In this document: positions 1 to 19,519 of the stretch, in pieces
Layout of the letters: each line of letters opens with the position of its first letter
Numbering within the stretch: position 1 is the first letter of the stretch
Origin: Sphaerotilus natans
GTDB taxonomy: Bacteria; Pseudomonadota; Gammaproteobacteria; Burkholderiales; Burkholderiaceae_C
DNA length: 54,094 nt
Reading direction: 5' to 3'
Assembly (NCBI RefSeq): GCF_900156335.1
Contig: NZ_FTMZ01000028.1
Coordinates: 1-54,094 of the forward strand
Program-made: the position numbers and the translations under genes
The notes under the pieces: generated by a model
Database searches by the model: none
What the model was told of the DNA's origin: nothing
Seen by the model: only the letters and a program-made list of their open reading frames with translations

Positions 1-77
1 ACCAGCAGGGAGTAGGCGATGGGAATGCCCAGGGCCATGGCGCCGAGCAGGGAGCCGAGGAAGATGAAGACGGTCAT
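1..77 (-). CDS. TRAP transporter large permease (DctM), N-terminal fragment
   Basis: Only the first 25 or so codons are inside the window; the gene runs off the left edge. The ATG at 77 gives MTVFIFLGSLLGAMALGIPI followed by AYSLL, a hydrophobic start typical of the 12-helix DctM/SiaM subunit that forms the sodium-driven channel of TRAP transporters. It follows a DctQ gene and a DctP gene on the same strand with short gaps, the usual P-Q-M order. The family call rests on this short segment plus context, so the substrate cannot be read from it. Confidence 0.8.
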   Translation of the reverse strand, partial: MTVFIFLGSLLGAMALGIPIAYSLL

Positions 78-110
78 GGAATCGGTACCCGGAGACAGGG
101 GAGGGCGAGA

Positions 111-665
111 TCAGTGGCGGGCCGCAGCGGCGTCCTTGTGGGCGGCCTCGAGCTGGGCGAGGTCCTCGGACTCCTGGACCAGGACAAGCTCGTCGTCGGA
201 GAGGCGCCCGGAGAGGGTGCGCAGCAGCTGGCCGACGAGAATGAGGCCGGAGAGGACGGCGAAGACGACGCCGGAGAGGTAGAACCAGCCCACGGAGAGG
301 CCGCTGACCGGGGCCTCGACCTCGCGGTTGATCTGGACCTGGGCCCAGGCGCCCGACAGCAGCAGCCAGGTGACGAAGAGCATGGCGAGCTGGGCGATGA
401 CCAGGCAGACGATCTTGCCGGAGCGCCCGAGCTGGCCCACGAGCATGTCGGTGCCGAGGTGGCCGTTGTCCTTGAGGGCGACCACGGCGCCCAGGAAGGT
501 CATCCAGACGAAGAGCCAGCGCGAGAGCTCCTCGCTGATGGTGATGCCGGAGTTGAAGACATAGCGCAGCACCACGTTGCCGAACACCAGCACCACCATC
601 GCCGCCAGCAGCAGCCCCATCACGGCTTCCAGCAGCCGGCAGAAATCGTCCAGAACCTTGGCCAT
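111..665 (-). CDS. TRAP transporter small permease (DctQ)
   Basis: A protein of 184 residues with four hydrophobic stretches (about residues 10-32, 47-65, 86-108 and 127-148), the expected topology for the small membrane subunit that docks the binding protein onto DctM. The conserved DctQ features are present: a first helix followed by RYVFN and then SEELSRWLFVW. A GTG lies one codon upstream (668), but AGGAG is 7 bases from the ATG at 665 and only 4 from the GTG, so I prefer the ATG. It sits between dctP (710-1729) and dctM (1-77) in one operon and would act in the cytoplasmic membrane. Confidence 0.88.
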   Translation of the reverse strand: MAKVLDDFCRLLEAVMGLLLAAMVVLVFGNVVLRYVFNSGITISEELSRWLFVWMTFLGAVVALKDNGHLGTDMLVGQLGRSGKIVCLVIAQLAMLFVTWLLLSGAWAQVQINREVEAPVSGLSVGWFYLSGVVFAVLSGLILVGQLLRTLSGRLSDDELVLVQESEDLAQLEAAHKDAAAARH

Positions 666-709
666 CACCTGTCTCCTCGTGGGTCGTCTTCAGTTCATGC
701 CGGAGCCGC

Positions 710-1729
710 TCATTGGCCGGCGCGCACCTTCTCGACAGACGCGTACACCTCCTTGACCAGCGGCTCGCCCAGCTCGCGGGTGAACTTGTCCAGCACCGGC
801 TTGGAGCGCTCGCGCAGCTTGGCGATCTCGGCGGCGGGCAGCTCGTGCACGTTCATGCCGCGCTTCTTCAGCTCGGCCAGCACCTTGGCGGCCTCGTCGC
901 GCGCGACCTTGCGCTGGTAGAGCGCCGTCTCCTGGGCCGCCTCGCGCAGGATCTTCTGCTCCACCGGCGAGAGCTTGTCCCAGAACTTCTTGCTGACGAT
1001 GACCGCCTGCGGCGTGTACATGTGGTTGGTCAGCGTCAGGTGCTTGGACACCTCGTTGTACTTGCCGTCGAGGATGTTGAGCAGCGGGTTGGTCATGCCG
1101 TCGATGGCGCCCTGCTCCAGCGCCGAGTAGGTCTCGGTGAAGGGCATCGGCACCGGCGAGGCGCCCATGGCCTTCATGAACTCGGTGTAGATCGGCGTGG
1201 GGATCACGCGCATCTTCATGCCGTTGAAGTCGTCGGCCTTGGTGATCGGCTTCTTGACGGTGTGGATGTGGCGAAAGCCCAGGTCCCAGTAGGCCAGGCC
1301 GACCAGACCGCGCTCCTGCAGCTTGTCGAGCAGGCGGCGGCCGATCGGGCCGTCGGCCAGCGCGTCGGCCTCCTTCGTGTTGGCGAACAGGAAGGGGAAG
1401 TCGAAGATCGCCATCTCCTTGACGTTGCCCGCCAGCAGGCTGGCGTTCATCACCGTCATCTCGACGGTGCCGCCCTGCATGGCCGAGACGGTCTGCAGGT
1501 CCGGGCCGAGCGCGCCGCCGGGGAAGGGCCTGACGGTGATCTTGCCGCCGGTCTTGGCCGCGACGATCTCGGCGAACTTCTCGACGCCCATCACCTGCGG
1601 ATGGCCCTTGTTGCTGGCCGACGGGAACTTGATGGTGCGGGTCTCGATGTCGTTGGCATGACCAAGGTTGCAGGCCAGCAGCGCAGCCGAGGCCAGCAGC
1701 GACAGCGAAAGACGGCGAAGGATGTTCAT
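710..1729 (-). CDS. TRAP transporter solute-binding protein (DctP family)
   Basis: A periplasmic binding protein of 339 residues. The N-terminus has two arginines, a hydrophobic core to about residue 20 and then an AHA-like cleavage region ending in GHAND; an LLAC motif just before it leaves a lipoprotein anchor possible. The family block KMRVIPTPIYTEF followed by YSALEQGAIDGMTNP contains the conserved arginine that binds the ligand carboxylate. AGGAG lies 6 bases upstream of the ATG. It is followed by dctQ and dctM and preceded by a shikimate-dehydrogenase-like gene, so the ligand is probably a hydroxylated ring acid or similar carboxylate; that is inference. Confidence 0.9.
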   Translation of the reverse strand: MNILRRLSLSLLASAALLACNLGHANDIETRTIKFPSASNKGHPQVMGVEKFAEIVAAKTGGKITVRPFPGGALGPDLQTVSAMQGGTVEMTVMNASLLAGNVKEMAIFDFPFLFANTKEADALADGPIGRRLLDKLQERGLVGLAYWDLGFRHIHTVKKPITKADDFNGMKMRVIPTPIYTEFMKAMGASPVPMPFTETYSALEQGAIDGMTNPLLNILDGKYNEVSKHLTLTNHMYTPQAVIVSKKFWDKLSPVEQKILREAAQETALYQRKVARDEAAKVLAELKKRGMNVHELPAAEIAKLRERSKPVLDKFTRELGEPLVKEVYASVEKVRAGQ

Positions 1730-1787
1730 GGTTGTCTCCTGGGTGAATGGAACAGCGGGAAATGGAACGAGGGTGTGACGTGTGCGA

Positions 1788-2633
1788 TCAGGCGGTGATC
1801 ACCTGGCGCACGCCAGAGAGGTCCGCACGCATCGCGCGGGCCACTTCGGGCAGGCCGAAGAATTCGAGATAGGCCGGCACCTGCTGCACCAGCATCTCGA
1901 AGCCAGCATGGGCCTCGATGCCGCGCGCGGCGCAGGCGCGCATCAGCGGCGTCGTGGCCGACTTCATCAGGATGTCGAAGACCTGCGTGCCGGGCTCGAT
2001 GCGCTCGACATCGAGCGGCAGCGGATCTGCGGGGTTCATGCCCAGCGGCGTGGCCTGGATGATCAGGTCGTGGCCGGCCGGATCGGCGCTGGCGGCGTGC
2101 AGGCGCGGGCCCGAGCCCTCGGACTGCAGGCGCTCGACCAGGCGCCGGGCACGGTCGCCCAGGTCGTGGATCGAGAGCTGGGCGATGGGCGTGTCCAGCA
2201 GCGCGGCGGCGATGGCCGCGCCGGCGCCGCCCGCGCCCAGCAGCAGCACGCGCCGGCCCGCCAGCGCGATGCCGTGGTGGGCCAGCGCGCCCACCAGGCC
2301 CAGGCCGTCGAACAGCGCGCCTTCGAGCGTGCCGTCAGCCGCACGCCGCACCGCATTGACCGAGCCGGCGCGCCGGCCGTGCACGTCGATGCCCGACAGC
2401 GCCGGCAGCAGCGCCGGCTTGTGTGGCACCGTCGCCCACAGCCCGGCGATGCTGCCCGAGCCGAGCACCTCGCGGGCGAAGCTGGCGGCGCGGCCCGCCG
2501 GCACATGGGCGGGCACCAGCACCGCATCGATGTCGTGCTGTTGGAAGATGCGGTTGAACAGGACCGGCGCGCGGACCTGGGCAACCGGGTCGCCGATCAC
2601 CATGAAGACGCGGGTCTGGCCGGAAATGTGCAT
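1788..2633 (-). CDS. Shikimate dehydrogenase-like oxidoreductase (paralogue 1, divergent site)
   Basis: 281 residues with the AroE fold: an N-terminal substrate domain, TVPHK with the catalytic lysine near residue 70, and a nucleotide motif GAGGAGAA near residue 138. It differs from true AroE at substrate contacts: the usual SxSP serine pair is VRAP, and the usual NTDG is LFDG, which keeps the aspartate but loses Asn-Thr. This favours a catabolic NAD(P)-dependent dehydrogenase for a quinate- or shikimate-like ring acid over the biosynthetic enzyme. It is the first gene of an operon with dctP, dctQ and dctM and is divergent from an IclR gene. No good ribosome site precedes the ATG at 2633. Confidence 0.78.
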   Translation of the reverse strand: MHISGQTRVFMVIGDPVAQVRAPVLFNRIFQQHDIDAVLVPAHVPAGRAASFAREVLGSGSIAGLWATVPHKPALLPALSGIDVHGRRAGSVNAVRRAADGTLEGALFDGLGLVGALAHHGIALAGRRVLLLGAGGAGAAIAAALLDTPIAQLSIHDLGDRARRLVERLQSEGSGPRLHAASADPAGHDLIIQATPLGMNPADPLPLDVERIEPGTQVFDILMKSATTPLMRACAARGIEAHAGFEMLVQQVPAYLEFFGLPEVARAMRADLSGVRQVITA

Positions 2634-2681
2634 GAAGGAAACGGAGGCGGGTCGTGAAACAAGGGCGGGGCGTGGAGGCGC

Positions 2682-2689
2682 ACTCTAGG
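2682..2689 (-). promoter_or_regulatory. Candidate -10 element CCTAGAGT for the operon starting at 2633
   Basis: On the minus strand this reads CCTAGAGT, about 50 bases before the start of the shikimate-dehydrogenase-like gene. The same octamer occurs at 14962-14969 and 19520-19527 before two other catabolic operons, which raises its likelihood as a sigma-70 -10 box. No convincing -35 element is visible, as expected for an activator-dependent promoter. Confidence 0.35.
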
Positions 2690-2728
2690 GTGATGAACCG
2701 CGCCGGACCAGATGATGCACCCGCGTCA

Positions 2729-2766
2729 TGACCGATAATCGGATCACTTTGTCCGTTGATCGGTCA
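2729..2766. promoter_or_regulatory. Candidate IclR operator (inverted repeat)
   Basis: Eight-base arms TGACCGAT (2729-2736) and ATCGGTCA (2759-2766) are perfect inverted repeats. The left part also holds the 11-base palindrome CCGATAATCGG (2732-2742). The site ends five bases before the IclR start codon and lies in the divergent gap between that gene and the TRAP/dehydrogenase operon, where it could control both. Assignment to this regulator is by position only. Confidence 0.55.
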
Positions 2767-2771
2767 TTTTT

Positions 2772-3572
2772 ATGGAAAACCCTGAACCGCTGCCGCCGTC
2801 CGAACCCCGCCGCCAGGCCATCGATCCGGCCGACCTGATCGTCGGCCTGGGCCGCGGGCTGGCGGTGATCGAGTCCTTCGACGACGAGCATGCGCGCATG
2901 ACCTGCGCCGAGGTGGCCGAGCGCACCGGGCTGCCGCGCACCTCGGCGCGGCGCCACCTGCTGAGCCTGTGCCACTACGGCTACGCCGACACCGACGGCA
3001 AGCGCTTCTGGCTGTCGCCGCGGGTGCTGCGGCTGGGCCAGAGCTACCTGGAGAGCGCGCGGCTGCCGCGCCTGGTCCAGCCCTTCATCCAGCGCCTGTC
3101 GATGCAGTGCGGCGAGACCGCCAACGTCAGCGTGCTCGACGGCCACGAGATCGTCTACGTGGCACGCAGCAACAGCCCGCGGGTGGTGTCGATCGGCTTT
3201 CTGGCCGGCGCGCGGGTGCCCGCGCATGTGGTCGCCCCCGGCCCGGTGCTGCTGGCCGAATTGAGCGAGGAGGCGCAGACCGCCTGGCTGGACCGGCACG
3301 AGTTCGCCGCCTTCACCGCCAGCACGCCGGTCGACCGGGCGGGCTTCGCCGAGCAGGTGCAGCTGGCGCGCCGGCGCGGCTGCGGCATCTCGGTGGGCCA
3401 GCTCGACGGTGGCCTGAGCGGCGTGGCCGTGCCGCTCAAGGATCGCCGTGGCGAATGCCGCGCCGCGCTGGGCATGACGCTGCAGACCGCCGCCTGGAGC
3501 GAGGCCCGCATCGTCGAGACGCTGCTGCCGCCGCTGCTGGAGACGGCCGCGACGCTTCGCGTGCTGCTGTAG
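2772..3572 (+). CDS. IclR family transcriptional regulator (PcaR/PobR-like)
   Basis: 266 residues. An N-terminal winged helix-turn-helix (about residues 20-80) starts with GLGRGLAVIESFD and contains the recognition region GLPRTSARRHLLSL. The C-terminal half is an IclR effector domain. The GLxRGLxVIE opening is typical of the IclR branch that controls aromatic and hydroaromatic acid catabolism. It is divergent from the dehydrogenase/TRAP operon at 1-2633, its likely target. The ATG lacks a Shine-Dalgarno sequence and follows a T-run, so the message may be nearly leaderless. The ligand is unknown. Confidence 0.9.
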   Translation: MENPEPLPPSEPRRQAIDPADLIVGLGRGLAVIESFDDEHARMTCAEVAERTGLPRTSARRHLLSLCHYGYADTDGKRFWLSPRVLRLGQSYLESARLPRLVQPFIQRLSMQCGETANVSVLDGHEIVYVARSNSPRVVSIGFLAGARVPAHVVAPGPVLLAELSEEAQTAWLDRHEFAAFTASTPVDRAGFAEQVQLARRRGCGISVGQLDGGLSGVAVPLKDRRGECRAALGMTLQTAAWSEARIVETLLPPLLETAATLRVLL

Positions 3573-3604
3573 CCGTGCGGCCGGGCGTGCGGCGGCGGCG
3601 CGGC

Positions 3605-4429
3605 TCACGCCCGTGGCGGCAGCCCGGCCAGCAGCCGGCGCGTGGCCTCGACCGCCTGGCACGCCCAGGCGACGTGGCCCAGTTCGCGCGCGCGCGACTC
3701 GCTCGGGATCTCGATGCTGATCGGCAGATCGTCGGGCAGCGCGCCGAGCAGGCCGGCCAGGTCGATGCCGCCCTCGCCGGGCAGCAGCCGCTCGCAGCGG
3801 GCATCGAAGATCATCGCCTCGACCGTGTCCGGCCCCGGCACGCGGCCGTCGCAGACCTGCACATAGTTCAGGCGCGCGTGCGGCAGCGCCGCCACATCGG
3901 CCAGCGTGCTGGCCGAGCGGGCGAAGTGCAGCGCGTCCACCAGCACGCCGCCGTTGGGCTGATCGGCCGCGGCCACCACCCGCGCGGCGGTGCGCACGTC
4001 GGCCACCGCCGTCCAGGGCATGCACTCCAGGTCGGCGGTCAGCCCGTGCGCGGCGGCGGCCTCGCACAGCCGCGCGAACGCGTCGGTCAGGCGGGCCTCG
4101 TCGGGGTCGTCGCCGGCGACCAGCACATGGCGCCCGCCGAGCTGCTCTCCGATCTCGAGGAAGCGCCGCCAGGCCTCGAGCGAGAAGTCCGCCCCGAGGC
4201 GCACCACCTCCAGGTCGAGCACCCGCACGCCGGTGTCGCGCACCGCCGCGAGCGTCTCGCGCAGCAGCTCGGGCCGCTCGGCCAGCGCGTGGTGCACGCC
4301 CCCCGGCGCCGAGGGCAGCAGGCGCAGGCCCACGCCCTGGCAGCCGACTTCGGCGGCGATCTGCAGGAAGCGCGGCGGCTCGACGGGCAGCGCCACCAGC
4401 TGCGCCAGCGACAGCAGTCGTTGCGTCAT
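3605..4429 (-). CDS. Sugar phosphate isomerase/epimerase-type TIM-barrel enzyme, possible ring-acid dehydratase
   Basis: 274 residues of the xylose-isomerase-like TIM-barrel (AP endonuclease 2) superfamily. Likely divalent-metal ligands are spread in family order: Glu in LECMPW, Asp-Ala-Leu-His in VDALHFAR, Gln/Asp in NYVQVCDG and Glu in ISIEIPSES. 3-Dehydroshikimate dehydratases (AsbF/QuiC type) belong to this superfamily, and the neighbours include two shikimate-dehydrogenase-like genes, so a dehydratase that helps aromatise a ring acid is plausible but not proven. GGAG lies just upstream of the ATG at 4429. It is the last gene of the operon that begins at about 8710. Confidence 0.75.
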   Translation of the reverse strand: MTQRLLSLAQLVALPVEPPRFLQIAAEVGCQGVGLRLLPSAPGGVHHALAERPELLRETLAAVRDTGVRVLDLEVVRLGADFSLEAWRRFLEIGEQLGGRHVLVAGDDPDEARLTDAFARLCEAAAAHGLTADLECMPWTAVADVRTAARVVAAADQPNGGVLVDALHFARSASTLADVAALPHARLNYVQVCDGRVPGPDTVEAMIFDARCERLLPGEGGIDLAGLLGALPDDLPISIEIPSESRARELGHVAWACQAVEATRRLLAGLPPRA

Positions 4430-4445
4430 GACGGCTCCTTCGGGC

Positions 4446-5069
4446 TCACTTCAGCGGCGACACCGCGGTCGGCAGGTAGATGCCGGACTTCATCTGCGGC
4501 ATCAGCCAGGCCGGGCCGCCCACCGGCGGCCACACGCCCTGGCTGACCGCATCGGCGCGCGCCTTCGAGCGCTCGTTCAGCGAGGCCGCAGGCCAGATGT
4601 GGGTGATGCGCGGCGTGCCCTCCAGCGCGTACATCGCGATCGTGCACGGCGAGATGCGGGTGCGCTCGGGCAGCGCCTTCTCCCAGGCCGCCAGCGTGGG
4701 CTGCAGGCCGCCGGTCTTGAGCTCGTAGCTGCGGATCTCGTAGATCGGGCCGAAGCTGCCCGGCTCGACCGGCGCCATCCACGGGAAGGGCGCGTAGCCG
4801 GCCAGGTCCATGCGGGTGAGGAAGTCGGCGCAGCCGAAGGGGTTGGCGGCCATCAGCGTACGGCGGCGCTCGCGCGACATCTCGGCTTCGCTGGCGAAGC
4901 CGCGCAGCACCACCAGCTCGTTGAGCGCGCCGATGTCGGAGAACCAGCAGCCCAGCAGCGTGCCGGCGGCCTCCGGATCGCGGCTCCAGGCCTCGACCGC
5001 GGTGGCGGCCGTGGGCGTGGTGCCCAGGCGCAGGGTCAGCGTGGCGAGTTCATAGACGGCGTGGCTCAT
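4446..5069 (-). CDS. NIPSNAP family protein
   Basis: 207 residues made of two related halves of a ferredoxin-like alpha/beta barrel. The second half begins with YEIRSYELKTG, the classic NIPSNAP signature (Y-E-x-R-x-Y-x-L). Small NIPSNAP proteins occur in many bacterial catabolic operons, but their reaction is not established. The start codon overlaps the stop of the upstream flavoprotein (ATGA at 5066-5069), so the two are translationally coupled. No signal peptide is seen, so it is cytoplasmic. A role next to the flavoprotein is inferred only from that coupling. Confidence 0.82.
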   Translation of the reverse strand: MSHAVYELATLTLRLGTTPTAATAVEAWSRDPEAAGTLLGCWFSDIGALNELVVLRGFASEAEMSRERRRTLMAANPFGCADFLTRMDLAGYAPFPWMAPVEPGSFGPIYEIRSYELKTGGLQPTLAAWEKALPERTRISPCTIAMYALEGTPRITHIWPAASLNERSKARADAVSQGVWPPVGGPAWLMPQMKSGIYLPTAVSPLK

Positions 5070-6847
5070 CGGGTCAGGTCCTTGGATCGTTCGGAAAGGG
5101 AAAGGGAGGCGGAGATCGGGCGGGGCGGGGTGCCCACGGGCAGGCCGGCGGCGTCATGGGCGGCGAGGAAGCCGAAGGTCATGCCGGGCCCGAGCGTGAT
5201 GCCGCCGCTGGGGTAGCAGCCGCCCATCACGCTGGCCTGGTCGTTGCCGACCGCCCACAGGCCGGCAATCGGCGTGCGGTCGGCGCTCAGCACCCGCGCG
5301 CGGGCGTCGGTGCGCAGACCGGCGAAGGTGCCCAGGCTGCCGGGCAGGATCTCGACGGCGTAGAAGGGCGCCTGCTCGATCGGCGCGACGCAGGGGTTGG
5401 GGCCGGGATGGCTCGCATCGCCCTGCATGCGGTTGTAGGGCGTGCCGCCGCGGTCGAAGGCGGGGTCGAGGCCGTCGCGGGCGGCCGCGTTGTATTCGGC
5501 CAGCGTGCGCTCGAAGGCGGTCGGCTCGATGCCGCAGGCCGCCGCCAGCGCCGCCGGCGTGCGGCCCCGGCGCAGGTAGCCCGAGCGCAGCGCCGGCCCC
5601 AGCGGCAGCGGCGCCGGGCGCACATGACCCAGGCCGTAGCGGCGGATGAAGCGGTGGTCGCAGACCAGCCAGGCGCGCATCGGCTCGTCCGGGGGCGTGG
5701 CGGCCTGCAGCGCGCTCATCAGGTCGTGGTAGGAATCGGCCTCGTTGGCGAAGCGCCGGCCGTGGCGGGTGACCGCGATCAGGCCGGGCTTGCCGCGCTC
5801 GATCAGGTGCGGGAAATGCCCCACCGAGCCATCGGCGCGCACCACCCGCGACACCGGCGCCCAGGCCACCGGCGAGGCGCCGCAGGCGACCTGGCCGCCC
5901 GCCGCCTCGCCCAGACGCAGGCCATCGCCGGTGTTCTCGGGCGGCGCGGCCGACCAGTGGTGGTTGCCGTCCTGGCGCGCGATCAGCGCCGCCAGCCGCG
6001 CGGGGTCGTGCGGGAAGCCGCCGCAGGCCAGCACCACGCCGGCCAGCGCCTCGACCGTCCGCTCGGCGCCGGCGCTCGTGCCCAGCACCGCGCCGGTGAC
6101 GCGGCCCTGCGCGTCCTGCAGCAGCCGGCGCACCGGCGCCGAGGTGCGGATCTCCACGCCGCGCTCCAGCGCCGAGGCCGCCAGCCGCGCCACCAGCGCA
6201 TTGCCGTTGACCAGATGCCGGCCTCGGCCGTGCACCAGGCGCTGGGCCAGGTGGCGGCTCACCCGGCGCGCGGCGTGCGTCAGGCTCGCCGCGGAGCGGG
6301 TGACGTTCATGAAATGCTTCAGGTCCGCGCCGCTGGCGATGCCCATGCCCAGGAAGGAGATCAGGTCCAGCGGCGGGCGCATCCGGTGCAGATGGGCCCC
6401 GAGCCGGCGGCCGTCGAAGGGCGCGGCGCAGACCGAGCGCCCGCCGGTGCGCGCGCCGGGGCTGCGGCCGTGGAAGTCGGGGATGGCGTTGCCGTCGATG
6501 AAGTCCACCGCGGTGTGCTCGCGCAGGAAGGAGATCATGCGGTGGCCGTTCTCCAGGAAGGCCTGGATGCGCGCCTCGTCCATCTGCGCGCCCAGCTCGT
6601 GGCGCAGGTAGGTGAGCGGCTCCTCGGGCGGCTCGGCCAGGCCGGCCTCGCGCGCGAGCGGGTTGTGCGGGATCCACAGCCAGCCGCCCGACCAGGCGCT
6701 GGTGCCGCCGAACTGCGCGGCCTTCTCGGCCACCAGCACCTTCATGCCGAGCGCGGCGGCGGTCACCGCGGTGGCCAGCCCGGCCGCGCCGGAGCCGATC
6801 ACCAGCAGATCGACCGTCTCGGCGTCACGTGGGTCGCGGGCCACCAC
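5066..6847 (-). CDS. FAD-dependent ring ketone dehydrogenase, 3-ketosteroid-delta-1-dehydrogenase-like
   Basis: 593 residues of the fumarate reductase/KstD flavoprotein superfamily. The FAD dinucleotide motif GSGAAG is at residues 18-23, followed by GGTSAWSGG. The C-terminus carries YPSGGITLGPGMTFGFLA with Tyr545 and Gly549 spaced as in the Y-P-x-x-G active-site block of ketosteroid delta-1-dehydrogenases, which abstract hydrogens beside a ring ketone. The substrate is not necessarily a steroid: flanking shikimate-dehydrogenase-like genes suggest a cyclohexanone-type acid. The start is GTG (6847 or 6844) after a GAGG-like site. The 3' end overlaps the NIPSNAP start. No signal peptide or Tat motif is seen, so it is probably cytoplasmic. 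Confidence 0.82.
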   Translation of the reverse strand: MVARDPRDAETVDLLVIGSGAAGLATAVTAAALGMKVLVAEKAAQFGGTSAWSGGWLWIPHNPLAREAGLAEPPEEPLTYLRHELGAQMDEARIQAFLENGHRMISFLREHTAVDFIDGNAIPDFHGRSPGARTGGRSVCAAPFDGRRLGAHLHRMRPPLDLISFLGMGIASGADLKHFMNVTRSAASLTHAARRVSRHLAQRLVHGRGRHLVNGNALVARLAASALERGVEIRTSAPVRRLLQDAQGRVTGAVLGTSAGAERTVEALAGVVLACGGFPHDPARLAALIARQDGNHHWSAAPPENTGDGLRLGEAAGGQVACGASPVAWAPVSRVVRADGSVGHFPHLIERGKPGLIAVTRHGRRFANEADSYHDLMSALQAATPPDEPMRAWLVCDHRFIRRYGLGHVRPAPLPLGPALRSGYLRRGRTPAALAAACGIEPTAFERTLAEYNAAARDGLDPAFDRGGTPYNRMQGDASHPGPNPCVAPIEQAPFYAVEILPGSLGTFAGLRTDARARVLSADRTPIAGLWAVGNDQASVMGGCYPSGGITLGPGMTFGFLAAHDAAGLPVGTPPRPISASLSLSERSKDLTR

Positions 6848-6856
6848 GGCGGCGCC

Positions 6857-7690
6857 TCAACGGGGCTGGCGCGGCTGCGCCGCCAGCGCGCCGTCTTCCA
6901 GCAGGAAGTCGACCATGCGCTCGCACACCGCGGCGAACATGCCAGCGCCCACCTGCGTGCGGCAGCCCAGCGAGCGCGCCACCTCCAGCAGCGGCGTGAC
7001 CGCCGGCGCGGTGATGACATCGCCCACGAACATCTCGCCCGTCAGGCGCGAGACATCGACCGGCAGCGCGTCGTCCGGGCGCATGCCCGCCGGCGTGGCG
7101 TTGAAGACCACGTCGAAGCCGCTCGGGTCGGTCGAGCCGGCGCGCACCCGCTCGCCGTGGCGCTCGCGCAGGCGCCGGATCAGGCCGTCGCGTTTCGCGC
7201 CGTCGCCGTCATGGATGGCCAGCTCGGCCGCGCCGGCGTCGAGCACCGCCTGCGCGATCGCGGTGCCGGCGCCGCCGGCGCCCACCAGCAGCACGCGCCG
7301 GCCCTCGATCACGCAGCCCTCGGCGCGCTGCGCCTCGACGAAGCCCAGGCCGTCGGCGTGGTCGCCGTGCCAGCGGCCGTCGGCGTTGCGGCGCATCACG
7401 TTGACGCCTTCGAGGAAATGCGCCCGCTCGGTGGCGGTGGCGCACAGCCGGTAGGTCTCCAGCTTGTGCGGCACGGTCAGGATCAGGCCGTCGACATTGC
7501 GTGCCAGGCTCAGGCCCGCGATGAAGCCGGCCAGATCGGCCGGGGCGACATGGATCGGGATGACCACCGCGTTGACGCCGCGGTCGATCAGCCGCTGCGT
7601 GACGCCCGAGGGCGACTTCACCTGGGCGATCGGGTCCCCGAGGATGGCAATGACGCGGGTGGCCCCGCTGAGGGTGTCGGCGATGTTCAT
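6857..7690 (-). CDS. Shikimate dehydrogenase-like oxidoreductase (paralogue 2, divergent site)
   Basis: 277 residues with AroE architecture: ILGDPIAQVKSP at the N-terminus, TVPHK with the catalytic lysine near residue 81, and GAGGAGTAIA for NAD(P). The NTDG block of true AroE is HADG, so the catalytic aspartate is kept while the Asn-Thr pair is lost. Only one serine of the usual SxSP pair remains. With paralogue 1 (1788-2633) it shares the GDPxAQV motif, suggesting both belong to one catabolic subfamily. It lies between an orphan DctP gene and the KstD-like flavoprotein with gaps of 6 and 9 bases, clearly one operon. A quinate- or shikimate-like substrate is inferred. Confidence 0.78.
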   Translation of the reverse strand: MNIADTLSGATRVIAILGDPIAQVKSPSGVTQRLIDRGVNAVVIPIHVAPADLAGFIAGLSLARNVDGLILTVPHKLETYRLCATATERAHFLEGVNVMRRNADGRWHGDHADGLGFVEAQRAEGCVIEGRRVLLVGAGGAGTAIAQAVLDAGAAELAIHDGDGAKRDGLIRRLRERHGERVRAGSTDPSGFDVVFNATPAGMRPDDALPVDVSRLTGEMFVGDVITAPAVTPLLEVARSLGCRTQVGAGMFAAVCERMVDFLLEDGALAAQPRQPR

Positions 7691-7696
7691 GTGATT

Positions 7697-8710
7697 TCAG
7701 CGCTTGGCGCGCACCTTCTGGACCTCGGCGACCATCTCCTGCACCAGCGGCTCGCCGATCTGGCGGGCGTACTTGTCGAAGACAGGCCGGGCCTTCTCGC
7801 GCATCCGGGCGATCTCGGCCGGCGCGACCTCGTTGACCTGCAGCTCCTTGCGCAGCGTCTCCAGCGCCTCGGCGTTCTTCTGGCGCGAGACCTTGCGCTG
7901 GTAGTCGCGCGCCTCGGCGGCGGCCTCGAGCACCAGCTTCTTCTCGTCCTCGCTGAAGGTGTCCCAGACCTTGCGGCTGATCAGCAGCGCCTGCGGGTTG
8001 TACATGTGGCGCGTCACCGAGTAGTACTTCTGCACCTCGTGGAACTTCTGCACCTGCATGGTGATGGGCGGATTGGTCGCGCCATCGACCGCGCGCTGCT
8101 CCAGCGCGCTGTAGAGCTCGGGGAAGGGCAGCGGCACCGCGTTGGCGCTCAGCGTGTTGAGCAGGTCCAGGTAGATCGGCGTCTGGATCACGCGCATCTT
8201 CAGGCCAGCCAGATCCTCGAGCTTCGTGATCGGGCGCCGGCTGTTGTGCATGTTGCGAAAGCCCAGCTCCCAGTAGGCCAGGCCGACCAGGCCCTTGGCC
8301 GGCAGCAGGTCGAGCAGCTTGCGCCCGATCAGGCCATCGACCACCGCATCGGCCTCGCGCTCGCTCTCGAACAGGAAGGGCATGTCGAAGATCGCCATCT
8401 CCTTGACGTTGCCTTGCAGCAGGCTGGCGTTGAGCAGCGTGAAGTCGATCGTGCCGCCCTGCAGCGACGACAGCACCGGCAGGTCGCCGCCCAGCGTGCC
8501 GCCGCCGAAGATCTTCAGCTTCATGCGCCCGGCGCTGCGGGTGCGCAGCAGCTCGGCGAAGCGCTCGACGCCGTCGTACTGCGCGGTGCCGCGGTCCACC
8601 ACCAGCGAGAGCTTCAGGTTGCGGTCCTTGAAGTCGGCGGCCTGCGCGGCCAGGCTGGCAGCGGCCAGCACGGTGGCGGCCAGCACGGTGTTCAGCGTCT
8701 TCTTCAGTAT
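7697..8710 (-). CDS. TRAP solute-binding protein (DctP family), non-AUG start
   Basis: About 337 residues, similar in family blocks to the DctP at 710-1729 (KMRVIQTPIYLDLL, then YSALEQRAVDGATNP). No ATG exists near its start. AGGAG at 8717-8721 is 6 bases from an ATA codon (8708-8710), the exact spacing used by the other dctP gene. The encoded N-terminus from there is LKKTLN plus a hydrophobic core to SLAAQA, a complete signal peptide. A start at the in-frame GTG (8686) would remove the lysines. Initiation is therefore probably at ATA or the next codon CTG (8707). No membrane subunits are adjacent, so it may share the DctQM at 1-665. Confidence 0.82.
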   Translation of the reverse strand: MLKKTLNTVLAATVLAAASLAAQAADFKDRNLKLSLVVDRGTAQYDGVERFAELLRTRSAGRMKLKIFGGGTLGGDLPVLSSLQGGTIDFTLLNASLLQGNVKEMAIFDMPFLFESEREADAVVDGLIGRKLLDLLPAKGLVGLAYWELGFRNMHNSRRPITKLEDLAGLKMRVIQTPIYLDLLNTLSANAVPLPFPELYSALEQRAVDGATNPPITMQVQKFHEVQKYYSVTRHMYNPQALLISRKVWDTFSEDEKKLVLEAAAEARDYQRKVSRQKNAEALETLRKELQVNEVAPAEIARMREKARPVFDKYARQIGEPLVQEMVAEVQKVRAKR

Positions 8711-8750
8711 GTCGGTCTCCTCGTGGCTCAGATCACGGGAGCAGATGTTA

Positions 8751-8768
8751 ATTCACCAATTGGTGAAT
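8751..8768. promoter_or_regulatory. 18-base perfect palindrome, probable TetR operator
   Basis: ATTCACCAATTGGTGAAT is a perfect palindrome about 40 bases before the dctP start and 120 before the TetR gene. The half-site TGGTGAA recurs at 8823-8829, and ATTCACCA recurs at 8868-8875 just before the TetR ribosome site. This places operators before both divergent genes, the classic arrangement for a TetR-type autorepressor. Confidence 0.7.
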
Positions 8769-8822
8769 AACAAGATGATTGATACGCCTTAAATTCTTCA
8801 TTGAATGCGTGTTTTCCCGGAA

Positions 8823-8875
8823 TGGTGAACTGCCGCACCGATCAAGCCCGTTTGTGCAGGGGCCATAATTCACCA
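8823..8875. promoter_or_regulatory. Second candidate TetR site: half-sites TGGTGAAC and ATTCACCA
   Basis: TGGTGAAC (8823-8830) and ATTCACCA (8868-8875) repeat the arms of the palindrome at 8751-8768 in this divergent gap. They lie 15-60 bases before the TetR start codon at 8891, positions suited to autoregulation. The long separation between them makes cooperative binding to the main palindrome more likely than one dimer bridging the two. Confidence 0.45.
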
Positions 8876-8890
8876 CAAAGAGAAACCGAG

Positions 8891-9535
8891 ATGCCCCGCC
8901 CCGCCCCGTCCCCCGAGAACCGCACCCGCGACGCCGAGCGCTCGCGCCAGGCCATCCTGTCCGCCGCGCTGGCGGCCTTCGCCGAGCACGGGCTGGGGGG
9001 CACGCGCATCGACGACGTGGCCGCCCGCGCGGGCGTGGACAAGCGGCTGATCTACTACTACTTCCGCACCAAGGACGGCCTGTTCAGCGCCGTGCTGGAG
9101 GAGGTCTATGCCGGCATCCGCAACGCCGAGGCCGAGCTGCACCTGGCCGAGCTGCCGCCGGTGGAGGCGATCACCCGCCTGGTGGACTTCACCTGGGCCT
9201 ATCACCTCGATCACCCGGAGTTCATCACGCTGATCAACAGCGAGAACCTGCACCGCGCAGCCCACATCGCGCAGTCCGAGCGCATCCGCACGCTGCACTC
9301 GCCGCTGATCGGCACGCTGGGCACGGTGCTCGAACGCGGCCGCGAGGAGGGCGTGTTCCGCGGCGGGGTCGATCCGCAGCAGCTCTACATCTCGATCGCC
9401 GGGCTGTGCTACTTTTATTTCTCGAACCGCCACACGCTGGGCGTGATCTTCGGCCGCCCGGTCGACAGCCCGAAGGCGCTGCACGAGCGCCTCTCGCATG
9501 TGCGCGAGATGGTGCTGGGCTATCTGCTGCGCTGA
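8891..9535 (+). CDS. TetR family transcriptional regulator
   Basis: 214 residues when started at the ATG at 8891, which follows GAGAAACCGAG; an in-frame start at 8801 would add residues unlike the family and span the proposed operators. The N-terminal helix-turn-helix runs from about residue 15 to 60, with AILSAALAAFAEHG, TRIDDVAARAGV and the recognition helix ending KRLIYYYFRTKDGLF. The remainder is an all-helical ligand domain. It is divergent from the orphan dctP operon and probably represses it until a pathway acid or its CoA ester binds. The ligand is unknown. Confidence 0.9.
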   Translation: MPRPAPSPENRTRDAERSRQAILSAALAAFAEHGLGGTRIDDVAARAGVDKRLIYYYFRTKDGLFSAVLEEVYAGIRNAEAELHLAELPPVEAITRLVDFTWAYHLDHPEFITLINSENLHRAAHIAQSERIRTLHSPLIGTLGTVLERGREEGVFRGGVDPQQLYISIAGLCYFYFSNRHTLGVIFGRPVDSPKALHERLSHVREMVLGYLLR

Positions 9536-10751: not shown

Positions 10752-10767
10752 TTGATCTTTTGATCAT
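10752..10767. promoter_or_regulatory. GATC-rich inverted repeat, candidate SorC operator 2
   Basis: TTGATCTTTTGATCAT repeats operator 1 with one changed base, 149 bases away and about 60 bases before the fusion gene start at 10826. Two copies plus the palindrome TTGATCAA at 10630-10637 would allow looping by a tetrameric SorC-type regulator. Confidence 0.6.
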
Positions 10768-10825
10768 TACGAATTACATTCGCTCAGACCTGTTCAAGTT
10801 CACACCTTCTGCCGGATTCCCGACG

Positions 10826-13800
10826 ATGACCTCTCCCTCCCGCCGAACCCTGGCCGACGCGCTGCGCGCGCTGGCGATGGACGCCGTTCAGCAGGCCAGC
10901 TCCGGCCACCCCGGCATGCCGATGGGCATGGCCGACATCGCCGAGGCGCTCTGGCGCCATCACCTCAGGCACGACCCGGTCGCGCCCGACTGGGCCGACC
11001 GTGATCGCTTCGTGCTCTCCAACGGCCACGGCTCGATGCTGCTCTACGGTCTGCTGCACCTGAGCGGCTACGACCTGTCGATCGACGACCTGAAGGCCTT
11101 CCGCCAGCTGCACAGCCGCACGCCCGGCCACCCGGAGCTTGGCTATGCGCCCGGCGTCGAGACCACCACCGGCCCGCTGGGCCAGGGCATCGCCAACGCG
11201 GTCGGCATGGCGCTGGCGGAAAAGCTGCTGGCGGCCGAGTTCAACCGCCCCGGCCACGCGGTCGTCGATCACCGCACCTGGGCCTTCCTGGGCGACGGCT
11301 GCCTGATGGAGGGCGTCAGCCACGAGGCCTGCGCGCTGGCCGGCACCTGGGGCCTGGGCAAGCTGACCGCCTTCTGGGACGACAACGGCATCTCGATCGA
11401 CGGCCATGTCGAGGGCTGGTTCAGCGAGGACATTCCCGGTCGCTTCGAGGCCTACGGCTGGCAAGTCATCCGCGGCGTGGACGGCCATGACAGCGCCGCG
11501 CTGGATGCCGCCATCGCGCAGGCCAAGGCCGAGACCGCGCGCCCGACACTGATCTGCTGCCGCACCACCATCGGCTTTGGCTCGCCCAACAAGGCCGGCA
11601 CGCACGACAGCCACGGCGCGCCGCTGGGCGCGGCCGAGATCGCCGCGACCAAGGCCGCTCTCGGCTGGTCGCACGGCCCCTTCGAGATCCCCGAGGACGT
11701 GCGCACCGCCTGGGACGCGCGCGAGACGGGCCAGGCCGCCCGCCAGCAATGGCAGCGCCGCTTCGACGCCTACGCCGACGCCCACCCCGCGCTGGCCGCC
11801 GAGCTGGCGCGCCGCCTGGCCGGCGATCTGCCCGAAGGCTTCGCTGCGCTGGCCGAGCGCGCGGTGACCGAGGCCGCCGCGCGCGGCGCCACCCTGGCCA
11901 GCCGCAAGGCCAGCCAGGAGTCGATCGCCGCCTTCGCGCCGGCACTGCCCGAGCTGCTGGGCGGCTCGGCCGACCTGACCGGATCGAACCTGACGAACTG
12001 GCCCGGCTGCGTCTCCGTCACCCCTGAGCGGCTGCGCGCGGGCGAGGGCGGCAACTACCTGCACTACGGCGTGCGCGAGTTCGGCATGGCCGCGATCATG
12101 AACGGCGTGTCGCTGCACGGAGGCTTCCGGGCCTTCGGCGGCACCTTCCTGATGTTCAGCGAGTACGCCCGCAACGCGCTGCGCATGGCCGCGCTGATGA
12201 AGCAGCCGGTCATCCAGGTCTTCACGCACGACTCGATCGGCCTGGGCGAGGACGGCCCGACCCACCAGCCGGTCGAGCAGACCGCCACGCTGCGCCTGAT
12301 CCCGAACATGGATGTCTGGCGCCCGTGCGACGCGGTCGAGACGCGCGCGGCCTGGGCCGCGGCGCTGCAGGCTACCGATCACCCGACCTGCCTGATCCTG
12401 AGCCGCCAGAACCTGGCGCACCAGCCGCGCGACGCCGCGCAGCTCGCGGCCATCGCCCGCGGCGGCTACGTGCTGCGGCCGGCCGAGGGCGAATCCCAGG
12501 GCCTGCGCCCGCAGCTCGTGCTGGTGGGCACCGGCAGCGAGGTGTCGCTCGCCGTGCAGGCCCGCGAGCAGCTCGCCGCCCGCGGCGTGCGCGCCCGCGT
12601 CGTCTCGCTGCCCTCGCTGTTCGCCTTCAAGGCGCAGGACGCGGCCTGGCGCGAGTCGGTGCTGCCCGCGGGCGTGCCGCGCGTGGCGGTCGAGGCTGGC
12701 GCCACCTCGGGCTGGCGCGAGATCGTCGACCTGGACGGCGCGGTCGTGGGCCTGGACACCTTCGGCGAATCGGCGCCGGCGCCGGCGCTGTTCCAGCATT
12801 TCGGCATCACCGCCGAGGCGGTCACGGCTGCCGGCCTGCGCGTGCTGGGGCTGGACAGTCCGCTCAAGGCGGTGGCGCGCCACGGCCAGCAGATCTGGCT
12901 GGATCAGCTCTCGCGCACGCTGGTGGCCAGCGGCGCGCTGCAGCGCTGGATCGACGACCACGGCATCGCCGGCGTGACCAGCAACCCGGCGATCTTCGCC
13001 CAGGCCTTCGCGTCGGATGCGGCCTACGCACCGGCGCTGGCGCAGCTGCGCGCCGAGGAGCCCGATCTCGAGCGCCGCTTCGAGCGCCTGGCCATCGCCG
13101 ACGTGCAGGCCGCCTGCGAGGTGCTGCAACCGCTCCACCAGCGCAGCGCGGGCGACGCCGGCTTCGTCAGCTTCGAGGTCTCGCCGCGCCTGTCGCGCGA
13201 CGGCGCCGGCACGCTGGCGGCCGCGCGCCGCCTGTGGGCCGAAATCGGCCGCCCCAACGCGATGATCAAGATCCCGGCCACGCCCGAGTGCCTGAGCGCG
13301 ATCGCCGACGCGGTGGCCGACGGCATCAACATCAACGTCACGCTGATCTTCTCGCCGCGCCAGCTGCTGCAGGTCTTCGAGGCCTGCGAGCAGGGCCTGC
13401 GCCGCCGCCAGGAGCGCGGCCTGCCGGTGGACCGCGTGCGCTCGGTGGCCAGCCTGTTCGTCAGCCAAGTGGACACATTGGTCGACCGCCTGCTGCCGGC
13501 CGGCTCCGAGGCACTGCGCGGCGAGGTCGGCATCGCCAACGCCCGCCACGCCTACGCGCTGTGGCTGGACCGCTTCGGCGGCAGCGAGTTCGCCGGGCTG
13601 CGTGCGGCCGGCGCCCGCGCGCCGTCCTGCCTGTGGGCCAGCACCGGCGTGAAGAACCCGGCCTGGCGCGACACCCGCTATGTCGAGGCGCTGATCGGCC
13701 CCGACACGGTCGACACCGTGCCCGACGCGACGATGGCCGCCTTCGCCGACCACGGACAGGCCGCGCGCACGCTCGACACCGCACTGCCCGAGGCCCGTGC

Positions 13801-13921
13801 CACGCTGGCCGCGGCCGCGCGCTGCGGCATCGACCTGGACGTGCTGGCCGAGCAGCTGCAGGCCGAAGGGCTGGCGCAGTTCGAGCAGGCCTTCGAGCGG
13901 CTGATGGCGGCGGTGGCTTGA
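10826..13921 (+). CDS. Transketolase-transaldolase fusion protein
   Basis: 1031 residues combining two pentose phosphate enzymes. Residues 1 to about 670 are a complete transketolase: [10 protein letters not shown] near the start, the thiamine diphosphate motif GDGCLMEG from residue 156, catalytic Glu446 in SEYARNA, and [11 protein letters not shown]. From about residue 677 ([16 protein letters not shown]) a full-length transaldolase begins, with GVTSNPAIF, the Schiff-base Lys815 in MIKIPAT, and INVTLIFS. No stop or frameshift separates them. The start at 10826 ([14 protein letters not shown]) fits the family; the frame is open upstream but that part overlaps operator DNA. Channelling of sedoheptulose 7-phosphate between domains is inference. 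Confidence 0.93.
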
Positions 13922-13938: not shown

Positions 13939-13954
13939 AGGATCTTCAGATCCT
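13939..13954. terminator. Hairpin between convergent fusion and LysR genes
   Basis: AGGATC (13939-13944) and GATCCT (13949-13954) form a 6-base-pair stem with a TTCA loop. The stop codon of the LysR gene (13946-13948) lies in the loop. No T-run follows, so a terminator role is tentative. Confidence 0.35.
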
Positions 13955-14863
13955 CCTCCAGGACGGATCGTTCTGGAGATGATGGGCCGCCCGGTGCAGA
14001 TGCGTCAGGAAATGGCGCACCACCGGCCTCAGCGCCGTCTCGACCCGGGTGATCGCGCCCAGCACCAGCCCGAGCGGCGCCTCCTGCAGCGGCGGTATCT
14101 CGATGAACGGCGCGGCGGCCGGATGCAGGGCCAGCGGCCGTGGCATCAGCCCGACGAAGTCGGCGCCGCCGATCAGCGACAGCAGCCCGAGCGTGGAGTT
14201 GACGGTGGCACCGCATGCGGGCGGCTCCAGCCCGTTCTGCTCGAACAGCCGCCGGCCGTAGCCGGTCACGCCTGACAGCCCGGTATAGACCCAGCGGGCC
14301 CCGCGCAATGCCTCCAGCGAGCGGGCCGTGGCGTGCACGCTGCCGCGCCGCGCCACCACCACCATCGACATCGGCATCAGCACCTCGACATGGAACTCGC
14401 CCGGCGGCAGCCGGTCGGGAATCGGTCCGAGCGCGATGTCGACATCGCCCCGGCGCAGGTTCATCAGCTGCTCGATGTAGAGCTCCTCGTTGATCTGCAG
14501 GTGCACGCCGTCGAACTCGCGGCTGAAGGTGCGCAGCGTCTCGGGCACCAGCAGCATCACCGCCAGCGGCACCGCGCCGATGCGCAGCTGTCCGCTCATG
14601 CGCCCGCCGAGCTGCCCGATCTCCTGGGCCGCGCCAGCCAGCTCGCGCAGCGCCAGGCCGGCGCGCTCGTAGAGCACCTTGCCCTGGGCGGTGGGCGTCA
14701 CGCCGGTGGTCGAGCGCACCAGCAGCGGCGCGGCCAGCTCCTGCTCGAGCTCGCGGATCATCTTCGTCAGCGCCGGCTGCGACACGCCGATGCGTCGGGC
14801 CGCCGCACGCAGGCTGCCTTCGTCGATGGCGGAAATCAGGGCGCGCAATGCAGGGATCTTCAT
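13946..14863 (-). CDS. LysR family transcriptional regulator
   Basis: 305 residues. The N-terminal helix-turn-helix (residues 1-60) reads ALRALISAIDEGSLRAAARR and then GVSQPALTKMIRELE; the rest is a periplasmic-binding-like effector domain with LRRGDVDIALGP. A GTG directly precedes the ATG at 14863 and could also start translation. It is divergent from the TRAP transporter and gallate dioxygenase operon (15071-19431) across a 207-base gap, so it is the probable activator of that operon with an aromatic acid as inducer. The effector is inferred from context only. Confidence 0.9.
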   Translation of the reverse strand: MKIPALRALISAIDEGSLRAAARRIGVSQPALTKMIRELEQELAAPLLVRSTTGVTPTAQGKVLYERAGLALRELAGAAQEIGQLGGRMSGQLRIGAVPLAVMLLVPETLRTFSREFDGVHLQINEELYIEQLMNLRRGDVDIALGPIPDRLPPGEFHVEVLMPMSMVVVARRGSVHATARSLEALRGARWVYTGLSGVTGYGRRLFEQNGLEPPACGATVNSTLGLLSLIGGADFVGLMPRPLALHPAAAPFIEIPPLQEAPLGLVLGAITRVETALRPVVRHFLTHLHRAAHHLQNDPSWRRI

Positions 14864-15070
14864 CACCGGAATGATATCTCCCTGGGGTAAACCCTGAAAA
14901 CGTGATAACCAGACGTGATCGCAACGGCAGACACGACATCTTTTGCGCTCCGAGCGCTCTGCCTAGAGTTCGGCCGTTCGAGATTGACCCGGCGCAAGAC
15001 CGGGTCGCTGCCCCCTCCCAACCTTCCAACGACCGCGCGCCCCGAAGCGGGCCGGCGTCGAGGAGACGAC
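14864..15070. promoter_or_regulatory. Divergent control region of LysR and the TRAP-dioxygenase operon
   Basis: The gap contains the inverted repeat GGGT-AA-ACCC (14885-14894) and a direct repeat of ACGTGAT (14900-14906 and 14913-14919). CCTAGAGT at 14962-14969 is a candidate -10 box on the plus strand. AGGAG at 15061-15065 is the ribosome site of the first transporter gene. The repeats near the LysR start are plausible regulator contacts; no exact LysR consensus dyad is clear. Confidence 0.45.
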
Positions 15071-15619
15071 ATGACGACTGGATCGGACACCGGCACCCGC
15101 CGGCCCGAGGACGGCGGCCGCCTGTTGCGGCGCCTGTGCGATTTCAACGCCGCCATCGGTGGCCTGGTGCTGGTGGCAATGGCCGGCATGACCACGGTGA
15201 GCGTGGTGGGCCGGGCCTTCTTCGCGCACCCGATCCTGGGTGACGTCGAGCTGGTGCAGCTCGGCAGCGCGGTGGTGGTGGCCTGCTTCCTGCCCTACAC
15301 CCAGTTCCGGCGTGGCAACCTGATCGTGGACTTCTTCACCACGAACGCCTCGGCCGGTGCGCAGCGCCGCATGGACGCCTTCGGCACGCTGCTCTACACG
15401 CTGGTGATGGCGCTGGTGCTGTGGCGCGTGGGCGCTGGGGCGCTGGCGATGCATGCGTCGCAGGAAAGCTCGATGCTGATGAGCCTGCCGCTGTGGTGGC
15501 CGTATGCGCTGATGCTGCCTGGCCTGGCGCTGTGCGTGCTGATCGGCCTGCAGCAGACGCTGGGGCTGCTGCGCGCACCGGCCGGCGAGACGGCGCAGAC
15601 GGCGGAGGTGACGCCATGA
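15071..15619 (+). CDS. TRAP transporter small permease (DctQ)
   Basis: 182 residues starting at the ATG after GAGGAGACGAC. Four hydrophobic helices (about 27-49, 60-78, 99-120 and 140-160) and the segment GRAFFAHPILGDVELVQLGS match the DctQ subunit. The reading frame is open far upstream, but the ribosome site fixes this start. The stop overlaps the start of the large permease (ATGA at 15616-15619). It belongs to a Q-M-P set that leads into an aromatic ring-cleavage gene. Confidence 0.88.
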   Translation: MTTGSDTGTRRPEDGGRLLRRLCDFNAAIGGLVLVAMAGMTTVSVVGRAFFAHPILGDVELVQLGSAVVVACFLPYTQFRRGNLIVDFFTTNASAGAQRRMDAFGTLLYTLVMALVLWRVGAGALAMHASQESSMLMSLPLWWPYALMLPGLALCVLIGLQQTLGLLRAPAGETAQTAEVTP

Positions 15620-16941: not shown

Positions 16942-17030
16942 CGACGCCCCCTCCCGTTCCTGCTCGCTTTCCACCCGATTTTCCGCCCGACCTGAGGCGG
17001 CTTCCCCGGCCTTTGCCCAAGGAAACTTCG

Positions 17031-18077: not shown

Positions 18078-18111
18078 AGCGCTGATTTCCCCTGTCCTGG
18101 AGCCTCATCGC

Positions 18112-19431: not shown

Positions 19432-19481
19432 ATCCGTCCCACAGGAAGCCTTGGCCTGAATGATGAATTCAAGTTAACAAT

Positions 19482-19506: not shown

Positions 19507-19519
19507 GTATCAGGTTCAA

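Follow-up and report, generated by a model that had tools for sequence, protein, structure and literature searches.

The catabolism of quinate and shikimate proceeds through a quinate/shikimate dehydrogenase, a dehydroquinase and the dehydratase QuiC, and requires neither a flavoprotein desaturase nor a NIPSNAP protein. The aromatisation of cyclohexanecarboxylate (Chc) in Sinomonas cyclohexanica uses SDR dehydrogenases and no QuiC-like dehydratase; here, KstD-like flavoproteins desaturate an oxocyclohexane carboxylate after hydroxyl oxidation (ChcB1/B2, ChcC1, ChcC2; families NF053676, NF053677, NF053701). This text deals with two adjacent operons of Sphaerotilus natans whose parts recall both of these known routes. 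They lie at the start of a 54,094-nucleotide stretch (NZ_FTMZ01000028.1), hereafter the window, which is the whole of contig C27 in a 4.63-Mb assembly of 57 contigs. Operon 1, the main subject, contains an AroE-like dehydrogenase (SDH1), a KstD-like flavoprotein (FAD-A), a NIPSNAP protein and a TIM barrel protein.

As in quinate/shikimate catabolism, the locus has an AroE-family dehydrogenase, a QuiC-type TIM barrel, an acid transporter, a PcaR-like regulator and protocatechuate as its likely product. In contrast, the SDH1 clade stands apart from the quinate-type dehydrogenases, and the TIM barrel is only 26–28% identical to split QuiC. Desaturation by a KstD-like flavoprotein is shared with the Chc route, but the proteins of the window do not reach the cut-offs of the Chc families. 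From these comparisons we infer, with a rough probability of 0.52, that operon 1 is a catabolic module in which a saturated or partly saturated hydroxycyclohexane carboxylate would be aromatised to protocatechuate, the reactions, the substrate and the product all being deduced from sequence.

A conserved gene set around FAD-A

On the minus strand, operon 1 runs in the order DctP2–SDH1–FAD-A–NIPSNAP–TIM barrel, with intergenic gaps of 6, 9, -4 and 16 bp. Its genes and the divergent regulator are as follows.

7697–8686, minus strand: DctP2, TRAP solute-binding protein (PF03480, 274 bits)
6857–7690, minus strand: SDH1, AroE-like dehydrogenase of the core module (PF08501, 44.7 bits; in a clade of 73 rows)
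5066–6847, minus strand: FAD-A, KstD-like flavoprotein, probable ketone alpha,beta-desaturase (PF00890, 326 bits)
4446–5069, minus strand: two-lobed NIPSNAP (alpha+beta barrel) protein (PF07978, 94 bits)
3605–4429, minus strand: TIM barrel, probable dehydratase with a QuiC-type active site (PF01261, 71.7 bits)
8897–9535, plus strand: TetR regulator, divergent to operon 1 (PF17938, 163 bits; 82% identical in the Sphaerotilus hippei locus L039)

Pfam matches bear out every gene named in the preliminary description of this DNA, that is, two AroE-like proteins, the KstD-like flavoprotein, NIPSNAP, the TIM barrel, two DctP proteins, IclR and TetR.

Genome contigs were scanned with FAD-A, which gave 574 relatives, of which the best 80 loci were kept; counts of FAD-A loci below refer to these 80. 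They belong mostly to Beta- and Alphaproteobacteria, with a few Gammaproteobacteria. Conservation was counted by direct tblastn in the 49 loci that are flanked by 10 kb on either side. All 49 have SDH1, 48 the TIM barrel and 47 NIPSNAP; a second flavoprotein, FAD-B, is present in 46, as is an IclR regulator. SDH1, FAD-A, NIPSNAP and the TIM barrel occur all together in 47 of the 49. A carrier gene (ABC, TRAP, tripartite tricarboxylate or MFS) accompanies them in at least 38 of the 49, a count restricted to gene clusters of which a member was scanned or which carry a DctP label. In 18 of the 80 loci NIPSNAP is even fused onto the C-terminus of FAD-A. The core gene set is real and above chance.

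Its distribution is nevertheless patchy. Across the order, where the preliminary description had proposed to look for the set, FAD-A-like genes are found in 13 of 250 genomes (E 1e-150), and a class-wide scan found them in 1 of 276, namely the window's own genome (E 1e-170).

FAD-B sits between DctP2 and SDH1 in S. hippei (L039/L150), at the place where the window has 6 bp. When FAD-B of a same-genus relative was used as query against the assembly, FAD-A alone came back; gaps in the assembly could hide the gene. Three of the 49 fully flanked loci (L041, L090 and L108) are also devoid of a nearby copy.

Predicted chemistry of operon 1

FAD-A is closest, among solved structures and by sequence, to the steroid dehydrogenase 7p18 (E 2e-86). 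It was aligned with Rhodococcus KstD1 (4c3x), whose active-site residues are Tyr119, Tyr318, Tyr487 and Gly491. Y373, Y545 and G549 of FAD-A correspond to Tyr318, Tyr487 and Gly491 and are kept in 80 of 80 FAD-A sequences; Tyr545 and Gly549 had been correctly placed from the sequence at the outset. The equivalent of Tyr119 is F125 in the window, Phe in 78 of the 80 and Met in two. FAD-B keeps Tyr119 and Tyr318 in 66 of 66 aligned sequences, and Tyr487 and Gly491 in 63 of the 66. Finally, His347 and Lys353 are found in all 80 FAD-A, all 66 FAD-B and 7 of 7 paralogues, and in neither of two steroid references.

Family profiles place FAD-A in the generic NCBIfam subfamily PRK06134 (862 bits, cut-off 747). 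It remains below the cut-offs of all KstD equivalogs (435 vs 789, 400 vs 788 and 333 vs 793 bits) and of ChcC1 and ChcC2 (NF053676 and NF053677; 338 vs 1000 and 479 vs 900 bits). The nearest named small-ring relative is ChcC2, a 4-oxocyclohex-2-ene-1-carboxylate desaturase, whose cut-off FAD-A misses by a wide margin. These comparisons make FAD-A a probable KstD-like alpha,beta-desaturase of ketones. A fumarate-reductase-like identity was rejected because flavocytochrome-type families score far under the KstD-type ones.

That FAD-A might be a steroid or terpenoid ketone dehydrogenase surrounded by unrelated genes would agree with the 7p18 match and with three of the four KstD1 residues. We regard this as very unlikely: AroE-like and QuiC-like proteins are its near-constant company, unlike the gene company of steroid clusters, carriers of the small-acid type stand in at least 38 of the 49 loci, Tyr119 is replaced by Phe, and the conserved His347 and Lys353 are foreign to the steroid references.

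Some paralogous flavoproteins have Tyr at position 125 and accompany SDR dehydrogenases, not AroE-like ones (L043, 17350–20083; L221, 1694–4900; L229, 12060–15831). This group suggests sister pathways.

SDH1 and its homologue in operon 2, SDH2, belong to the AroE family without reaching the cut-off of TIGR00507 (128.8 and 138.5 bits, respectively, vs 200). The catalytic Lys65, Asn86 and Asp102 (AroE numbering) are kept in all 89 aligned rows. The two serines that hold the substrate carboxylate in AroE, Ser14 and Ser16, are Val and Ser in SDH1, whose group has Val at the first position, and Val and Ala in SDH2. The "divergent site" ascribed to both proteins is confirmed, at the first serine in both and at the second in SDH2 alone. 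For SDH1 and SDH2 alike, the best match among solved structures is the shikimate dehydrogenase family protein PDB 4k28 from P. putida. Its QVKS motif is that of SDH1, but it forms a long branch weakly placed beside the SDH1 clade (90/83). In a tree of 103 rows, the clade of SDH1 has 73 members (support 100/95) and that of SDH2 has 13 (99/100).

The only NCBIfam match of the TIM barrel is QuiC, the 3-dehydroshikimate dehydratase (NF042435), at 47 bits against a cut-off of 1200, and a domain search found no second domain corresponding to the fused HPPD-like domain of QuiC. Its active site is nonetheless strongly conserved. Among 23 orthologues, Glu135, Asp165, His168, Asp194, Arg211, Arg214 and Glu240 are invariant and Gln191 is nearly so; position 191 is His in Gemmobacter and Antarctobacter. 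E135, D165, H168, Q191, D194, R211 and R214 coincide with residues of the QuiC structure 5hmq, E240 lying outside the compared stretch of 5hmq. All eight, E240 included, coincide with those of the split QuiC of the same genome and of two relatives. An AlphaFold model (pLDDT 96) gives Lmo2234, IolI and QuiC as best Foldseek matches. Of the ten top structural matches, only QuiC (5hmq) is known to us as a dehydratase; as judged from the model, the fold alone does not separate a dehydratase from an isomerase. The conserved residues make the protein a probable dehydratase with QuiC-type metal chemistry. Because QuiC and this TIM barrel can share one cluster, the latter probably uses another, related enone, for example a stereoisomer. 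The structure 5HMQ has been presented as the QuiC prototype, of a class with metal-binding Glu, Asp and Glu (PMC9324987).

The NIPSNAP model (pLDDT 94) has only remote Foldseek matches, with 6–11% identity in the top ten; these are putative monooxygenases, an anthrone-oxidase-like protein and a coproheme decarboxylase.

We propose that the acid would be taken up by the TRAP carrier and that SDH1, using NAD(P)+, would turn one ring hydroxyl into a ketone. FAD-A would then remove two hydrogens next to the ketone, as KstD does at C1–C2 of 3-ketosteroids, and the TIM barrel would remove water by QuiC-type metal chemistry, the ring turning aromatic. NIPSNAP, beside FAD-A, could serve as a tautomerase or assist in handling the unstable enone. 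Each hydroxyl oxidation, desaturation or dehydration would supply one of the three aromatic double bonds, so that SDH1, FAD-A and the TIM barrel would be just sufficient for aromatisation, at the cost of one hydroxyl. A trihydroxy acid such as dihydroshikimate would thereby yield protocatechuate, to be opened by LigAB, encoded elsewhere in the genome. If the KstD chemistry, which places the double bond at C1–C2 relative to a C3 ketone, were applied to 3-oxo-dihydroshikimate, it would give 3-dehydroshikimate, the substrate of QuiC. Dihydroshikimate is plausible as a natural substrate because lactic acid bacteria are reported to reduce quinate to dihydroshikimate (Carr et al., 1957, cited in PMC10558750).

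The notion, already present in the preliminary description, that a ring acid is oxidised, desaturated and dehydrated agrees with the enzymes and with part of their neighbourhood, but the usual set includes a second flavoprotein that was not found here.

The two flavoproteins could instead act as ChcC1 and ChcC2 do, converting 4-oxocyclohexanecarboxylate to 4-hydroxybenzoate without dehydration, with the TIM barrel as an isomerase. The ChcC2 score of FAD-A is above its three KstD scores, the one SDR neighbour tested reaches 211 bits for ChcB2, and isomerases or putative isomerases are among the top structural matches of the TIM barrel. However, the flavoprotein and SDR scores are far under the cut-offs (900 and 350), the SDR neighbour is better matched by a generic family, and for FAD-B a KstD model (428 bits) outscores ChcC2 (414 bits). 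Moreover, the AroE-like enzyme and the QuiC-like dehydratase would be superfluous for such a route, and FAD-B was not found in the window's genome or in L041, L090 and L108. We consider this alternative quite unlikely.

Links to genes of aromatic-acid degradation

Aromatisation to protocatechuate is consistent with the genes found near the set in other genomes. At an identity of at least 38%, 14 of the 80 FAD-A loci contain ligAB or split QuiC, against 0 of 20 control stretches. Five loci with an SDH marker only, at 26–29% identity (L046, L057, L084, L088, L100), were excluded from all marker counts.

Plasmids provide further examples. Among 87 records found, 12 were examined and 11 of these are annotated, some with incomplete gene tables. 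QuiC, pcaGH or both lie near the set in 4 of the 11, with QuiC in three (H1, H22, H25) and pcaGH in two (H19, H22). Paracoccus alcaliphilus has QuiC and a further SDH near the gene set; in Antarctobacter heliothermus these two are near the FAD and TIM genes, and so they are in Gemmobacter fulvus, together with pcaGH, pcaC and pcaD. In Novosphingobium, pcaGH is near the flavoprotein. Profiles confirmed the QuiC and PcaH families of these plasmid proteins, QuiC being under the two-domain cut-off. The stretches of the other seven annotated records contain neither QuiC nor pcaGH. Three of these have other aromatic genes some kilobases away: in Diaphorobacter they are genes for catechol and benzoate, Paracoccus sp. 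MA has a 4-carboxy-4-hydroxy-2-oxoadipate aldolase, and P. methylovorus has pcaF together with phenylacetate genes.

The genome of the window itself encodes a split QuiC at the end of contig C48, and a QuiC tail, a dehydroquinase and LigAB at the start of contig C13. Across genomes, a LigA-family gene is present in 5 of the 6 with a FAD-A of at least 60% identity (own genome included) vs 34 of 244 others (Fisher p 0.0004), genome size and relatedness being uncontrolled.

The split QuiC N-domain gene is present in two copies at these contig ends (C48 end and C13 start; L199, L200), 96% identical over the 110 bp that they share, and this duplication might explain breaks in the assembly. A junction of C27 with C48 or C13 was considered, but the initial 3 kb of C27 has nothing in common with either the final 3 kb of C48 or the opening 3 kb of C13.

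Several observations weigh against the protocatechuate module proposed for operon 1. Neither ligAB nor split QuiC, at the 38% threshold, appears in the stretch examined in 66 of the 80 FAD-A loci. When the count is widened to all quinate and ligAB markers of at least 30% identity, the contrast is weak, 19 of 80 vs 1 of 20 controls (a dehydroquinase in L146), and related loci are not independent; the 19 include five loci left out of the 14 (L058, L078, L106, L107, L109), which have only a dehydroquinase, an SDH or a 34% QuiC marker. The 60% line of the LigA association was drawn after the matches had been seen, and taking all 13 FAD-A-like genomes gives 6 of 13 (p 0.007). A separate QuiC in the same cluster means that the TIM barrel does not simply do the job of QuiC. 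The four flavoproteins linked to QuiC or pcaGH on plasmids differ from that of the window at positions 125 (Met or Thr for Phe) and 372 (Gly for Ser); to judge by these residues they may form a sister group, and the difference at position 125 slightly reduces our confidence. No NIPSNAP is annotated beside FAD and TIM in Gemmobacter and Antarctobacter, and no SDH or TIM is annotated there in Novosphingobium. As Tyr119 is replaced in FAD-A, its predicted activity is not assured. Finally, FAD-B is present in 46 of 49 relatives yet was not found here, and the window's copy of the module may be reduced or inactive.

An acyl-CoA dehydrogenase is found in 20 of the 80 loci and a CoA transferase in 19, and the proposed scheme has no use for either. 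They would find one if the cluster encoded another cyclic-acid route, through CoA thioesters and without aromatisation; both adjoin core genes in the same-genus genome G008 (L157). Yet these CoA genes were not found in most loci and are not annotated in the four alphaproteobacterial records with QuiC or pcaGH, whose gene tables are incomplete. Such a route appears rather improbable.

Operon 2 and the meaning of the gene set

The second operon lies between operon 1 and the contig start, and the genes seen are an IclR gene, SDH2 and TRAP genes. IclR is divergent from SDH2, with 138 bp between them, and DctP1, DctQ and a partial DctM then follow up to the contig end.

2772–3572, plus strand: IclR regulator, PcaR/PcaU/PobR-like (PF01614, 100 bits; TIGR02431, 257 bits, below the cut-off of 285)
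1788–2633, minus strand: SDH2, AroE-like dehydrogenase (PF08501, 47.9 bits; in a clade of 13 rows)
710–1729, minus strand: DctP1, TRAP solute-binding protein (PF03480, 306 bits)
111–668, minus strand: DctQ, TRAP small permease (PF04290, 102.7 bits)
1–77, minus strand: probable DctM, TRAP large permease, first codons only (ATG at 77, just after DctQ; identity inferred from position; the contig start cuts the gene)

The TRAP transporter announced for this region is thus only partly visible: DctQ is present, but the membrane part otherwise consists of 77 bases of a probable DctM.

Of 44 SDH2-like places found, 18 were examined, one of them 3 kb long (L217) and five others 9–10 kb, so that absences there mean little. 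An IclR gene similar to that of the window stands beside the SDH2-like gene in 15 of the 18, and a split QuiC is nearby in six (L152, L203, L204, L208, L209, L210); one of the 18 immediately follows a gallate dioxygenase gene (L216). The sister group of the SDH2 clade (96/86) comprises 8 dehydrogenases, all of them accompanied by a dehydroquinase, a split QuiC or both. In these respects SDH2 looks like a catabolic dehydrogenase of the shikimate/quinate type. Since its clade and the sister clade accompany split QuiC, class II dehydroquinase or gallate dioxygenase, operon 2 would not be the second half of the operon 1 pathway; it is probably a separate operon, of the shikimate/quinate type or of the gallate type. 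We favour the former, in which IclR, SDH2 and the TRAP genes would make up a neighbouring operon feeding the same pool. The two operons had initially been read as one pathway; they are genuinely adjacent, but SDH2 belongs to another clade with other company.

The product could also be gallate. The AroE-like and flavoprotein steps would then convert either a tetrahydroxy acid or 3-dehydroshikimate into gallate, whose ring a gallate dioxygenase would open; by counting, a tetrahydroxy acid that is oxidised, desaturated and dehydrated gives a trihydroxybenzoate. The window does encode a gallate dioxygenase beside TRAP genes (18112–19431; NF009904, 733.7 bits, cut-off 412), and in G008 the gene immediately after a gallate dioxygenase that shares 71% identity with that of the window is SDH2-like, with a QVRA motif (L216, 9191–11409), an arrangement hinting at an AroE-like step towards gallate. 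However, the dioxygenase of the window is 9.4 kb from DctP2, and a regulator gene and a transketolase-transaldolase gene separate the module from the gallate cluster. Furthermore, among 229 loci only L216 and a piece of the window match this dioxygenase at 70% or more; the 80 FAD-A loci reach 42% at best, with a LigB-like match. Gallate as the product of operon 1 is therefore unlikely.

Further genes of the window are of interest in their own right. A gallate-type cluster (13946–24761) comprises a LysR regulator, a TRAP carrier (14915–18077), the gallate dioxygenase, two fumarase-like subunits (19485–21097), another LysR, an isocitrate/isopropylmalate-type dehydrogenase and a dicarboxylate symporter. 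At 10760–13921, one frame of 1053 residues carries transketolase and transaldolase domains. At 48104–51222, a class II dehydroquinase and an AroE that passes the family cut-off form a tandem with genes for a CaiB-type CoA transferase and, by a weak match, a MaoC-type hydratase; these look like shikimate-pathway genes within an apparent catabolic operon. A biosynthetic shikimate role for SDH1 and SDH2 was discarded, as the genome has two more AroE-family genes, one of them this AroE (48594–49457; 228 vs 200 bits).

A broader reading, for which we hold out less hope than for operon 1 itself, is that the gene set represents an undescribed and widespread aerobic route of Proteobacteria for aromatising saturated hydroaromatic acids (dihydroshikimate-like or isomers). 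It would combine an AroE-like enzyme with an altered acid site, a KstD-type desaturase with NIPSNAP beside it or fused to it, and a second QuiC-like dehydratase, and would join the quinate pathway at protocatechuate or gallate. The gene set was not found described in the literature searched, which covered few subscription journals and is weak evidence of absence. The parts are common to quinate/shikimate catabolism and to Chc aromatisation, but none of the proteins tested attains the curated cut-offs of these two systems; the novelty is real but unproven.

If this reading is true, conserved families of many soil and freshwater Proteobacteria named only "FAD-dependent oxidoreductase", "NIPSNAP family protein", "sugar phosphate isomerase/epimerase" and "shikimate dehydrogenase" would gain a function, and ring acids would have an additional way to protocatechuate or gallate. 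NIPSNAP would acquire a role, next to a flavoprotein, that can be tested, and caution would be called for in annotating such AroE-like genes as shikimate biosynthesis.

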